This document shows positions 42,722-45,826 of a stretch of 51,647 nt of DNA, piece after piece. Each line of letters opens with the position of its first letter. The first letter of the stretch is position 1. The stretch comes from an uncultured Bacteroidota bacterium (GTDB lineage Bacteria > Bacteroidota > Bacteroidia > Flavobacteriales > Flavobacteriaceae). The notes under the pieces are model-generated. The model was not told the origin of the DNA. It made no database searches and saw nothing but the letters and a program-made list of their open reading frames with translations. The position numbers were made by a program, and so were the translations under genes. The stretch is from positions 1 through 51,647 of the forward strand of contig CACNGE010000008.1 in assembly GCA_902619855.1 (NCBI GenBank), read 5' to 3'.

Positions 42722-43909
42722 TTAGTCTAGGATTTCTGTAACCTGACCAGCTCCTACTGTACGACCTCCCTCACGAATAGCAAATCGCAAACCAACGTTT
42801 AATGCAATTGGTTGGATCAAATCTACCTCGATTGTAAGGTTGTCACCAGGCATTACCATTTCAACTCCACTTGGAAGGTTGATGTTTCCAGTAACGTCTG
42901 TTGTACGGACATAAAACTGAGGACGATAATTGTTATGGAATGGCGTGTGACGTCCACCCTCTTCCTTTTTAAGGATATAAACCTCAGCTTTAAACTTGGC
43001 GTGAGGAGTAACAGAGCCTGGCTTACAAATTACCATACCTCTTTTGATATCAGTTTTCTCGATACCACGTAGAAGAATACCTACGTTGTCACCCGCTTCA
43101 CCACGATCTAATATTTTACGGAACATCTCAACACCAGTAATGGTAGAGTCTAATTTCTCAGCTCCCATACCAATAATGTCTACAGCATCACCAGAGTTAG
43201 CAACACCAGTTTCAATACGACCTGTTGCAACCGTTCCACGACCTGTAATCGAAAATACATCTTCGATTGGCATTAAGAAATCTTTATCGACATCACGCTT
43301 TGGCAATTCGATCCAGTTGTCAACTTCTTCCATGAGCTTCATGACAGATTCAACCCACTTTTGCTCACCATTTAAAGCGCCAAGAGCAGATCCAAGGACC
43401 ACAGGTCCATTGTCTCCATCATAGTCATAAAAGCTAAGCAATTCACGAACTTCCATTTCAACGAGTTCTAAAAGTTCCTCGTCGTCCACCATGTCAGCTT
43501 TGTTTAGGAATACGACAATACGTGGCACCCCAACCTGACGTCCAAGTAGAATGTGCTCACGAGTTTGTGGCATCGGACCATCAGTAGCAGCAACCACAAG
43601 AATTGCTCCGTCCATTTGCGCAGCACCAGTAACCATGTTTTTCACATAGTCGGCGTGACCAGGACAGTCAACGTGTGCATAGTGACGATTAGATGTTTGA
43701 TATTCGACGTGTGAGGTATTGATTGTAATTCCTCTTTCTTTTTCCTCAGGTGCGTTATCAATTTGATCAAAGCTTTTAGCTTCTGAAAATCCAGCGTCAG
43801 CTAGTACTTTGGTGATCGCAGCTGTTAGGGTTGTTTTACCATGGTCAACGTGCCCAATTGTGCCTATGTTTAGGTGGGGTTTCGACCGATCAAAGGTTTC
43901 CTTTGCCAT
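42722..43909 (-). CDS. tuf: elongation factor Tu
   Basis: EF-Tu delivers aminoacyl-tRNA to the ribosome; 395 residues. All G motifs are intact: [36 protein letters not shown] and SALGA. The C-terminal domains end [13 protein letters not shown]. It normally lies immediately after the tRNA-Thr-Tyr-Gly-Thr cluster, but here about 1.8 kb of accessory DNA lies between and tuf has a -7 element of its own. Confidence 0.99.
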
Positions 43910-43941
43910 AATGTTATACGTTTATGCTTTTAAAATGAGCG

Positions 43942-43949
43942 CAAATATA
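43942..43949 (-). promoter_or_regulatory. -7 element TATATTTG of tuf
   Basis: TATATTTG on the minus strand lies 32 nt upstream of the tuf ATG. The -33 position lacks a good TTTG, so only the -7 half is convincing. Confidence 0.5.
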
Positions 43950-44005
43950 ATTATTTATTCTTAACAATCCTTGTTGAGATGTTAAAAATTTTTCTTTTAA
44001 AAACA

Positions 44006-44130
44006 AAGGGCATTCGTGCGACTTTGCTCACGATCAAAATCGGCAAATCACATCAAATGCCCCATGCAGTTTGACATAAGGCCAATGTCAATCAATTTCC
44101 ATTTACAAAGCAAATGGGGTGTATGCCCTT
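44006..44130. repeat. 125-nt imperfect inverted-repeat element
   Basis: Outer arms AAGGGCAT (44006-44013) and ATGCCCTT (44123-44130) are perfect complements. TTTGC and GCAAA pair further in, and TTGACAT/ATGTCAA forms a 7-bp inner hairpin around a 7-nt loop. The piece could fold into one long stem as RNA, or be a small repeat element. No flanking direct repeats were recognised. Confidence 0.4.
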
Positions 44131-44136
44131 ACGTCA

Positions 44137-44400
44137 TTATTGGTTTAAGGATTTTTTATGTTTTTCGGTCAGTTTTTCCACTTCCTTTTCGAATGAAAAG
44201 AAGGGGTTGAAAACAGGGACATAATGAGAGATCAAACCAATGCCCTATCCCATTAGCGATAAAAAGGCCCAGTTGATAAGCTCATTGTCATACAGATCAA
44301 CGCCAAATAAAAAGATGTTGACCAAAATATAAACTAGAAGATGTGAATTGAAGCTGACAATGTTTTCAGCTTTTTCAAGGATTTTTTGTTAATTCACGAT
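44137..44400 (-). pseudogene. decayed 2TM-domain membrane protein gene
   Basis: The minus strand encodes KILEKAENIVSFNSHLLVY, then ILVNIFLFGVDLYDN, NWAFLSLMG, an in-frame TAG (44245-44247, where TGG would give the expected Trp), GIGLISHYVPVFNPFF and a charged tail ending SLNQ (stop 44137-44139). This is the order of the Bacteroidota 2TM domain: charged helix, two membrane helices, then a family-like NPFF and basic tail. Upstream the frame is closed by TAA, which a single extra A in the A run at 44382-44387 would bypass, giving SQYRELTKK. Nonsense plus frameshift argue for a dead gene. A further hydrophobic fragment (ITVIVIILWFYIS, about 44394-44440) may be another remnant. Confidence 0.6.
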
Positions 44401-44493
44401 ATTGAGATATAGAACCACAAGATAATAACTATCACAGTGATTTAAAATACCCAAAAGAAAGTTACCGTGTAAGCTGAGGGAATGATGGCTTCT

Positions 44494-44669
44494 TTATGTC
44501 TTCTTCTTAAAAAATTTAATCTTACCATTTATACCTATGTTAAAGCCCAACCCCATCATAAGCAAACCTTGAAAATAACTGCTATCATATACAGCAATGT
44601 AGAGCCCAAACACAAATAATGCATGAGATACCATGATGTTGGCATAAAATAAAATCTGACTTTATTCAT
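44494..44669 (-). pseudogene. small membrane protein gene with single-base frameshift
   Basis: From the ATG at 44669, which follows a leader shared with the two neighbouring genes, the frame reads MNK and then goes out of phase. Adding one A to the AAA run at 44661-44663 joins it to SQILFYANIMVSHALFVFGL and IAVYDSSYFQGLLMMGLGFN, ending KIKFFKKKT at 44494. The restored protein has 58 residues with one or two membrane helices. Without repair the ATG at 44634 could still give a 46-residue protein. I do not recognise the family. This is either a recent mutation or a sequence error in a homopolymer. Confidence 0.5.
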
Positions 44670-44697
44670 CGTATTGTTTTTAGTGGTACTAATTTAA
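44670..44697 (-). repeat. repeated leader sequence, copy 1
   Basis: Directly upstream of the frameshifted small gene. The minus strand reads TTAAATTAGTACCACTAAAA then ACAATACG before ATG. It matches copy 3 across its length and copy 2 over the last 18 nt. Confidence 0.55.
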
Positions 44698-44708
44698 AAT
44701 TTTTGGAA

Positions 44709-45242
44709 TTACTGTAATGAAAAAAGAAATACTAACCCCATTGATAATACAGCCAAAATACCATACAAGACCCCATCTATAGCTTTTGAAATAGACTTTT
44801 GTCTTGCCCCCTTTTTATATCCTTTTAAATAATCCAAATCATCAATAATTAATTTATTCCTATTGGTAATTCCCATATTATGTGGTTTTTGGTTTGATGT
44901 TACGTATATAAGAAGTATTGGTGCGCCCATAAGGGGAATTGAGGGGATTCCTAAAATTAAATTGCCCATTTGATTTCTTGCGTATCTTTTACCATCTAAA
45001 AATCCAAGACTATATTTTTCTTTTGATGTTAATTCTTGGTCAAAAGTAAGATTCAATATGTCTTTATTTTTAATGGTTTTGATATCTACGCCTACATTCA
45101 TTTTTATTTTATTCCTTCCAATATCTACAACTTGCCCTTGAATATATTTTCCATTTTGTAGAACTACGTAATCGTAGCTAATCTCGTTTGCAAATGTTAA
45201 GCTGCTTATAAATACAGTGATGCATATTATTAATTTTTTCAT
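44709..45242 (-). CDS. hypothetical exported membrane-associated protein
   Basis: This 177-residue protein has a cleavable signal peptide (MKKLIICITVFISSLTFANE). A beta-rich segment (VLQNGKYIQGQVVDIGRNKI, then DIKTIKNKDILNLTF) follows, then two similar motifs each leading into a hydrophobic helix: YSLGFLDGKRYARNQ before residues about 100-118, and YLKGYKKGARQKS before 155-175. The first pattern resembles a widespread Bacteroidota group of exported proteins with an NGxxxxGxV beta-domain. No function is known. It starts after a leader repeated at its two neighbours and lies in the insertion between tuf and the tRNA cluster. Confidence 0.7.
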   Translation of the reverse strand: MKKLIICITVFISSLTFANEISYDYVVLQNGKYIQGQVVDIGRNKIKMNVGVDIKTIKNKDILNLTFDQELTSKEKYSLGFLDGKRYARNQMGNLILGIPSIPLMGAPILLIYVTSNQKPHNMGITNRNKLIIDDLDYLKGYKKGARQKSISKAIDGVLYGILAVLSMGLVFLFSLQ

Positions 45243-45263
45243 CGTATTGTTTTTAATTCACTA
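45243..45263 (-). repeat. repeated leader sequence, copy 2
   Basis: Directly upstream of the 177-residue protein gene. The minus strand reads TAGTGAATTAAAAACAATAC then G before ATG. The last 18 nt match copy 1 with one difference. Confidence 0.5.
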
Positions 45264-45605
45264 AAAGTCTTTAATATAATCTACAATTAAAATCAAAGCA
45301 TAAATTCCAACAATTGGAAGAGATATAAGCACACTTGTTTTTAAATATGAAAGCTTTTGAACTTGTACTTCATAAATCCCCTTTTGAGGTATCTTTAGGG
45401 TTTTTCCATCTCGCGTTGATATATATAGATTTTGTTCATCTTTTTTGACGAAACTACCATCGTATTTCGTTCCATCAATCATAACAACCCTGATTTTTTT
45501 ATATTCATCAGCTTTAACATAATCGTAATGAATGTATTTATATGAAGAACAGCTCTGAAATAAAAAAGAGAAGAAAATTAAACCAAGCGCCAATAGTTTC
45601 TTCAC
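45261..45605 (-). CDS. hypothetical lipoprotein with C-terminal membrane helix
   Basis: This 114-residue protein has a lipoprotein signal peptide (lipobox FQSC, then SSYKYIHYDYV). A short beta-rich domain (IRVVMIDGTKYDGSFVKKDE, then LYISTRDGKTLKIPQKGIYEV) and a C-terminal hydrophobic helix (SVLISLPIVGIYALILIVDYI) follow. The beta-domain has the same [ND]GxKYxG pattern and spacing as the neighbouring 177-residue protein, suggesting distant paralogy. The start is GTG at 45605, in the position where the two other copies of the leader have ATG. Function unknown. Confidence 0.7.
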   Translation of the reverse strand: MKKLLALGLIFFSFLFQSCSSYKYIHYDYVKADEYKKIRVVMIDGTKYDGSFVKKDEQNLYISTRDGKTLKIPQKGIYEVQVQKLSYLKTSVLISLPIVGIYALILIVDYIKDF

Positions 45606-45633
45606 CGTATTTTTTTTATTAGTACTAATTTAA
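45606..45633 (-). repeat. repeated leader sequence, copy 3
   Basis: Directly upstream of the small lipoprotein gene. The minus strand reads TTAAATTAGTACTAATAAAA then AAAATACG before GTG. It differs from copy 1 at only a few positions. Confidence 0.55.
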
Positions 45634-45754
45634 GAAAAAATATAAGTGGTAAAAAACAGGAAAAACTAAAGAATCAAAACAAAGAGTTCACTTTTAGTTC
45701 ACATTGAAGTTTTAAAAAATGACTTTGAATTACGTAACTCTCTGATAATCAATG

Positions 45755-45826
45755 AGCCAATGACGAGATTTGAACTCGTGACCTCTTCCTTACCAAGGAA
45801 ACGCTCTACCCCTGAGCTACATCGGC
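45755..45826 (-). tRNA. tRNA-Thr (GGT)
   Basis: Acceptor GCCGATG/CATTGGC (one G-U), D arm GCTC/GAGC, anticodon loop CTTGGTA (GGT), T loop TTCAAAT. CCA is not encoded. It is the last of four tRNAs transcribed together on the minus strand. Confidence 0.96.

Follow-up and report, generated by a model that had tools for sequence, protein, structure and literature searches.

The interval between tRNA-Thr(ggt) and tuf in the flavobacterial contig examined here is, we think quite probably, one of the docking sites for small-gene cassettes from a pool that spans the genus and is exchanged at short sequence joints. The stretch analysed (the window, 51,647 nucleotides) is the whole of contig C8 of genome G000, a draft of 1.53 Mb that is 72.7% complete and whose relatives show it to be marine and flavobacterial. 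Two joints recur in its genus. The first is a 36-bp leader, TTAAATTAGTACCACTAAAAACAATACGATGAAGAA, which holds a stop codon, a spacer and a start codon, and the second, which we call J, consists of the 3'-terminal ~55 bp of a tyrosine-recombinase gene, ends in ATGCCTATGGTTTAA and is repeated between small genes. The joints, a reciprocal switch of sequence at them, and different genes at one and the same locus were all observed in our sequence comparisons, as were element genes common to different genera and an element seated in a split tRNA gene.

In the mechanism we propose, the cassettes would be mostly single small genes, many of which appear by eye to encode signal peptides or membrane segments. 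The leader could give a preceding gene its stop codon and would give the following gene its start, other cassettes would have J at their 3' end and could draw their stop codons from it, and small elements that integrate at tRNA genes would carry the cassettes, with recombination at the joints exchanging them between loci and genera. The block in the window would have come by such an exchange and afterwards lost its element genes, and the exchange is presumably still under way. As to the enzyme responsible, we would place about half of our belief in short-homology recombination of a host or phage type, somewhat less in the element's tyrosine recombinase acting at J, and little in anything else.

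A sequence-only reading of the window had described an accessory insertion of about 1.8 kb at the tRNA-Thr border, made up of two small exported or membrane proteins, two decayed membrane-protein genes and an inverted-repeat element, with no integrase in view. These observations are confirmed. The interval measures 1,844 bp (Table 1), ORF114 and ORF177 are both present, the 2TM-domain gene and the short membrane-protein gene are interrupted by two stops and a frameshift, respectively, and the inverted-repeat element has a folding energy of -52.4 kcal/mol (z -5.2), which none of 200 shuffles reached. The base composition, for which a comparison had been suggested, also sets the interval apart, with G+C of 27-31% in 500-base windows from 44250 to 45749 versus 34-46% in windows either side. 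Neither ORF114 nor ORF177 reaches a curated family cut-off or has a PHROGs match. At the end of the tRNA-to-leader flank stands TATATTTTTT, which we take to be promoter-like. The hairpins, similar in G004 and G007, were considered as a possible mobile repeat, but they are single copy in their own genome.

Table 1. Features of the interval, in order from the tRNA to tuf (positions in the window)
Feature	Position	Strand	Basis
tRNA-Thr(ggt), left border of the variable interval	45754..45826	-	ARAGORN; Rfam
tRNA-to-leader flank (120 bp), resembles G004, G007, G012 and G003	45634..45753	-	alignment
Leader joint 1, 4 mismatches in 36, contains the ORF114 start codon (GTG)	45598..45633	-	pattern search
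ORF114, 114 aa, small lipoprotein-like cassette gene, GTG start	45261..45605	-	ORF list, comparison
Half-leader, right half alone (TAAAAACAATACGATGAA), starts ORF177; unrelated left side	45238..45255	-	
ORF177, 177 aa, signal-peptide-like start, hydrophobic end	44709..45242	-	ORF list
Leader joint 2, 1 mismatch in 36	44662..44697	-	pattern search
Short membrane-protein gene, frameshift near start	44494..44669	-	read from alignment
2TM-domain gene with two in-frame stops	44137..44397	-	read from alignment
Two strong hairpins (inverted-repeat element)	43985..44140	-	folding
Promoter-like sequence of tuf, TTG...TATATTTGC	43941..43967	-	alignment
tuf (EF-Tu), right border	42722..43909	-	

The integrase-tail joint and its elements

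The fetched loci contain 46 copies of J, with none for the reversed control, and at <=3 mismatches J occurs in 37 copies in 11 of the 13 genus genomes and in 20 of 397 family genomes, distributed over 14 of 237 genera. Its two sides have been reassorted, with 15 and 52 same-side pairs and a single pair alike on both, among the 72 of 82 copies that have enough sequence on both sides; 45 of the 52 belong to a single cluster made up of ten integrase copies. At 26 of the 82 copies an antisense gene stops exactly at J +1 (18) or +8 (8), and seven of the eight proteins that stop at +8 end Lys-Pro. A random-position control gave no such peak (141 of 514 positions with any such stop in the 130-base range, and 14 of 514 with stops in the ten bases containing +1 and +8). 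Different proteins therefore end in stop codons encoded by J. The J pattern had no match in the viral collections, and no Rfam match was obtained in five loci at E<=0.1 (Rfam may hold no attC model).

The element integrase itself, of 348-357 aa, matches Pfam Phage_integrase and PHROG 1 (phrog_1), and relatives at E<=1e-20 were present in 10 of the 60 genomes searched. There was no match among 50,697 phage records, one weak plasmid match, and in the viral collections nine pattern matches, none of them a relative. This first integrase family was not found at E<=1e-20 in the window's own draft, 72.7% complete as it is; contig C21 of the same genome does have, next to leaders, an integrase of a second type. 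In flank group 0, the sequence upstream of nine leaders is the end of a tyrosine-recombinase gene, in seven cases a remnant gene. Whole tRNAs lie beside integrases at loci L159 and L160, and pieces of tRNA genes, judged by eye, at L155, L156 and L157.

An apparently complete element of ~3.9 kb is found in a split tRNA-Asn on contig C17 of G392, a genome of another genus. Its ends are marked by a 49-bp repeat (88% identity, with 22 bp exact) whose two copies start 3,877 bp apart and include the tRNA-Asn anticodon stem-loop, and 22-base arm-like repeats lie near both ends; the content comprises a 446-aa protein, a 117-aa protein, a T9SS-tail cassette, a leader and the integrase. Compared with G000, the 446-aa gene of G392 is 97.2%, the 117-aa gene 90.4% and a 170-aa cassette 94.5% identical, versus 66.5-74.9% for four core genes, a disparity which argues for recent transfer between the genera for some of these genes. 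The T9SS cassette common to G392 and G009, again two genera, is only 80.3% identical, which counts against our explanation. Transfer between genera is supported, as far as comparison of sequences goes. The 446-aa protein matches no Pfam, PHROGs or NCBIfam family and is 27-30% alike over about 40% to three megaphage records; its relative in L124 had no PDB sequence match and gave an AlphaFold model that is useless (pLDDT 34). That the protein is a polymerase is only a motif guess.

It is conceivable, although on balance we doubt it, that J is itself an insertion site, at which the tyrosine recombinase of the element captures circular cassettes composed of a gene and J. Such a capture would be analogous to that of IntI at attI and attC, and the arrays without an integrase would be relics. 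The pile-up of unrelated genes' stops at two J positions speaks for this explanation, as do the sharp 3' edge of J and its single orientation per locus (35 of 35 copies in nine multi-copy loci). The same is true of the arrangement in G003:C18 (L157), where a tRNA-His piece, recognised by eye, is followed by an integrase gene ending in J and then by three antisense genes each beside J, the first two of which stop in J and the third about 60 bases away. However, the 5' edge of J fades, neither strand of its consensus folds stably (134 and 200 of the 200 shuffles did as well), the complete element has its tRNA site at the other end of the integrase gene, and no excised circle was observed; furthermore, the leader joint is left unexplained. 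An allied and similarly uncertain proposal is that the system is a second, independent kind of integron, in which the integrase gene end, J, would be both docking site and cassette joint, with the stop codon supplied from the integrase tail, and in which a further joint on the start side would, in one lineage, hand the cassettes a ready translation start. We continue to favour exchange of cassettes at both joints, and turn to the leader.

The leader joint and reassortment at it

Searched as a 30-bp core with <=3 mismatches, the leader occurs in 44 copies in 13 of 13 genus genomes (reversed-pattern control 0) and in 4 of 397 family genomes, three of them of the window's genus and the other G392. 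An exact 28-bp search of an 84,980-species collection returned 14 stretches, of which 13 are labelled Flavobacteriaceae or Bacteroidetes and one Euryarchaeota; in viral collections the exact leader had 0 matches. The stretch with the archaeal label (PBDU01000020.1, L124) was considered as a case of archaeal spread and rejected, misbinning being likelier because the printed start of its integrase equals, by eye, that of the integrase on G000:C21. In all, 66 leaders were collected, from the fetched loci only and at <=9 mismatches in 36, a threshold that by itself raises conservation inside the pattern; column counts were taken from 61 leaders with <=7 mismatches each. The leaders precede different genes, many with signal peptides of two types (by eye). 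In 19 of 64, the TAA at leader +1 closes a frame that runs open over 84 bases or more upstream, a count which has no random control and includes at least one non-gene flank (that of G003 behind the tRNA). The leader folds slightly better than shuffles (9 of 200 as good). Its centre was considered as a recombinase spacer between short arms (TTAG...CTAA), which we do not claim, permutation support being weak.

To examine reassortment, upstream flanks and downstream genes were clustered separately. Among 65 of the 66 leaders (L124 was dropped from the pair counts and the identity profile and kept in the clusters), 91 pairs have a common flank, 41 a common gene and 2 both, and these pairs are not independent of one another. 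In the leader-aligned identity profile, same-flank pairs resemble each other up to the leader and have dropped to background by about +60; same-gene pairs show no more than background similarity up to it and jump to 0.82 at +1. ORF114 and its relatives stand behind four flanks in four genomes, those in G002, G001 and G011 following leaders with three flanks other than that of the window. Several flank clusters represent the ends of genes present in many copies (integrase, S74 protein, T9SS tail) and not orthologous loci, and the strict same-locus evidence is smaller: four genomes with four genes in flank group 2 (tRNA-Thr), three genomes with three downstream sequences, one a 15-codon stub, in flank group 5, and three genomes with two genes in flank group 6. 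Inside the leader, the sequence at positions 31-40 goes with the downstream gene (permutation fraction 0.003) and that at positions 1-15 weakly with the flank (about P 0.08), and mapping of a crossover there is accordingly weak. Taken at the level of sequence, reassortment at the joints is supported.

The leader may also have a role in translation. Its right half, TAAAAACAATACGATG, is the most conserved part and also occurs alone, broken between positions 15 and 16 (e.g. at ORF177), and relative to the start codon A stands at -3 in 61, at -6 in 60 and at -12 in 59 of 61 leaders. In Flavobacterium johnsoniae, A at these positions is reported to favour initiation (PMC6847099), and the half of the leader that is rich in A most likely doubles as a strong start region. 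These properties would also suit a leader kept by selection as a conserved translational or regulatory start before unrelated secreted-protein genes, without any recombination. We consider this improbable, since one flank precedes different genes and one gene follows different flanks, with the switch at the joint, and since a leader without a usable ATG has been retained before one cassette in two genomes (G000C40:2697, G002C16:8045).

The tRNA-Thr/tuf locus in the window and in relatives

The close order of tRNA and tuf that had been assumed to be normal in flavobacteria is indeed seen in most loci outside the window's genus: of 21 loci retrieved there, 18 have the two genes 49-169 bp apart (retrieval covered 30 of the 60 genomes in the relatives search). 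In G032, G016 and G075, ARAGORN saw no such tRNA within the 891-1,500 bases at hand. In G016, of another genus, ~0.8 kb extends from a tRNA piece at the contig start to tuf and holds a 79-aa lipoprotein-like ORF and two tiny ORFs, without a leader of the window type. Within the genus, the interval takes values of 177 (G010), 289 (G002), 436 (G005), 532 (G009), 1,275 (G007), 1,399 (G003), 1,526 (G012) and, in the window, 1,844 bp; the G004 contig begins inside the tRNA and that of G006 ends inside the interval.

By alignment, the tRNA-to-leader flank is common to G000, G003, G004, G007 and G012, the leader of G007 at this locus being degenerate (9 mismatches in 33). Behind this one flank, four of these genomes carry four different genes, namely ORF114 with ORF177 in the window, a 163-aa lipoprotein-like gene in G003, a gene of 191 codons with a T9SS-type end and a changed start codon in G004, and a gene for a 205-aa T9SS-type protein in G012 (Por_Secre_tail was confirmed in the G005 copy of the latter). 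ORF177 adjoins ORF114 in G002 and G006 as well (85% and 84% protein identity). G009 is without a cassette, its 2TM gene lying within about 45 bp of the tRNA, and G010, with the shortest interval, is without a leader there. The short membrane-protein gene is an open frame in G004 and G007. The two stops in the 2TM gene of the window are absent from the aligned relatives; the copy in G003 has an in-frame TGA of its own, that in G004 a one-base gap near its end, and that in G005 is open (83 aa) and matches Pfam 2TM.

The sequence-only reading had interpreted the interval as one insertion, with tRNA-Thr as its possible point of entry and direct repeats to be sought at its borders. An accessory insertion at the border of tRNA-Thr is supported; a single insertion with flanking direct repeats is not. 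A second copy of any part of tRNA-Thr was sought in the interval, and the best matches (14-16 identities) fall within the shuffle range. The lack of an attachment duplication at tRNA-Thr is a point against our own explanation as well, and so is the window block itself, in which no integrase, J or element gene was detected at the thresholds used. A connection with an integrase is to be found not in the window, but in the tRNA-integrated element of a relative, which carries the same leader, and in relics in sister intervals. Of the latter, orf87, an antisense element-gene relic, occurs in the tuf interval of G012, of G003 and of the second tuf contig of G005 (79-84% protein identity), and a copy of J occurs in that of G007 (L054:3498). 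The J of G007 runs opposite in direction to the leader there, which sits uneasily with our explanation. Given the J and orf87 relics, we read the interval as a cassette site at tRNA-Thr that an element would first have opened and that would later have been refilled and have partly decayed.

A single accessory insertion at tRNA-Thr that is now decaying, with no wider system behind it, would account for the low G+C, the decayed genes and the close spacing in most loci outside the genus. It is nonetheless slightly less credible than a leader kept by selection and is contradicted by the alignments, as sister genomes differ in the cassettes behind one conserved leader position and the leader joint recurs in 13 of 13 genus genomes. 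The locus is filled differently from genome to genome, and the informative borders are not two outer ones, but the internal joints; the single-insertion interpretation, in part supported, is as such replaced by a system of cassette exchange. Least credible of all is an artefact in which assembly or binning joined unrelated contig pieces through short repeats: the genus genomes are all drafts, G005 has two tuf contigs, and its contig C122, possibly chimeric, joins two loci through an integrase-leader, but ordinary short reads should span joints of 36-60 bp, the arrays occur in contigs that appear to be those of AG-349-I20 and AG-908-E14, by their names presumably single-cell genomes, as well as in MAGs, and the stops sit at fixed joint positions.

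It had further been suggested that the insertion uncouples tuf from the promoter of the tRNAs. The motif TATATTTGC, which we take to be promoter-like, stands just upstream of tuf in all eight aligned genus members, with single-base differences, and also before tuf in G002, in the other contig of G005 and in G010; it could not be seen within 75 bases upstream of tuf at 18 loci of other genera. Hence tuf probably has a promoter of its own, G010 included, and the link to the tRNA promoter may have been lost and replaced.

Relation to known systems

If marine flavobacteria with small genomes do exchange small exported-protein genes at these joints, this would show how streamlined ocean bacteria vary their surface; it would also provide a simple sequence tag by which a mobile gene pool could be found in metagenomes, and a testable example of how an integron-like platform could develop out of an ordinary tRNA integrase. 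Among the entries listed for the chosen terms in one open-access library, none describes a leader of this type or an integrase-tail array. In its working the system resembles integrons and pdif arrays, but it lacks features that define them.

Integrons are the textbook cassette system and seem to be rare in Bacteroidetes. The likeness to them lies in arrays of small genes, many with a repeated 3' joint in one orientation, and in cassettes common to different genera; some arrays adjoin a tyrosine-recombinase gene and others do not, and sedentary chromosomal integrons and CALIN are included in the comparison. The repeated 3' joint in one orientation is a feature of only part of the J copies, however. 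The integrase found here scores 22.6 bits with the integron-integrase model (NCBIfam TIGR02249) versus a cut-off of 265 and is not of the IntI type, and in G003:C18 it converges with the cassette genes. Furthermore, attC sites are imperfect palindromes that fold as single strands, whereas J is without a fold, is the integrase gene's own 3' end and is accompanied by a second joint on the start side. For Bacteroidetes proper, one complete integron is reported, in Salinibacter ruber (PMC9024848).

The pdif modules of Acinetobacter plasmids are likewise small gene modules bounded by short common sites and shuffled. According to a published account, pdif sites are 28-bp XerC/XerD sites of alternating orientation (PMC13141974). 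When compared by orientation, J differs in running one way within each multi-copy locus, and it is the end of a coding gene. An integrase together with a duplicated tRNA part at both ends, by which tRNA-integrating elements are recognised, is present in G392:C17 and not in the window. Among such elements, tycheposons are small, have a tyrosine recombinase next to a piece of tRNA that is duplicated, and carry variable cargo, and the elements described here share each of these properties with tycheposons and satellites of marine bacteria. They differ in that their cargo genes are linked through a stop/start leader and through the integrase tail, and in that cargo genes also occur as arrays outside the elements. 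Last, lambdoid phages have boundary or linker sequences, short and conserved, which lie between genes and are thought to allow modules to be swapped. The joints described here are similarly short conserved sequences between swappable modules, but unlike those linkers they reside in bacterial chromosomes, contain start and stop codons and connect small cassettes.

Sequences directly upstream of tuf

The promoter-like sequence that alignment assigns to tuf of the window's genus was not seen in other genera, where the last 75 bases before tuf were inspected at 18 loci; at the loci without a visible motif, the tRNAs closely precede tuf. The hairpins between the 2TM-domain gene (broken by two in-frame stops) and tuf are similar in genomes G004 and G007 and not so in the G012 group; possibly they provide tuf with a terminator or a structured leader. 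In the G005 draft, tuf lies on two contigs (C122, locus L059; C125, locus L058), and on C122 a DoxX locus is linked to tuf via an integrase and a leader, the shared 36-bp joint, a junction that could be either a true rearrangement or a chimera.

Features located in the window and fetched loci (L numbers)
Feature	Location	Basis
Promoter-like sequence, TTG...TATATTTGC	window 43941-43967	alignment
Two strong hairpins	window 43985-44140	
Second integrase type, 505 aa	L106:5185-6702; L124:7173-8000	phrog_1 match
Element protein, 446-453 aa	L140:420-1760; L105:3002-4342; L124:3921-5282	
Large YadA-head protein, Peptidase_S74 end	L105:198-1877, plus relatives	
Four tandem ORF177 paralogues	L065:5795-8121 (G047:C11)	

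Neighbors of leaders and cassettes

Large YadA-head/Peptidase_S74 proteins precede leaders, and the leader's TAA is the stop codon of several of them. The second integrase type accompanies leader cassettes on contig C21 of the window's own draft genome and on L124 (PBDU01000020.1), a contig from a MAG labelled Euryarchaeota; L124 bears the flavobacterial leader, a cassette and this integrase, and is probably misbinned. The tandem paralogues of ORF177, the 177-aa cassette gene, lie in another genus and have about 29-34% identity.

A protein of the tRNA-integrating elements

The 446-aa form of the element protein matched no known family in Pfam, PHROGs or NCBIfam, and phage records of 634-735 kb gave a weak match to the protein. 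It contains the motifs DMSAAQPTL and IIHDS, which we take to be reminiscent of family A polymerase.
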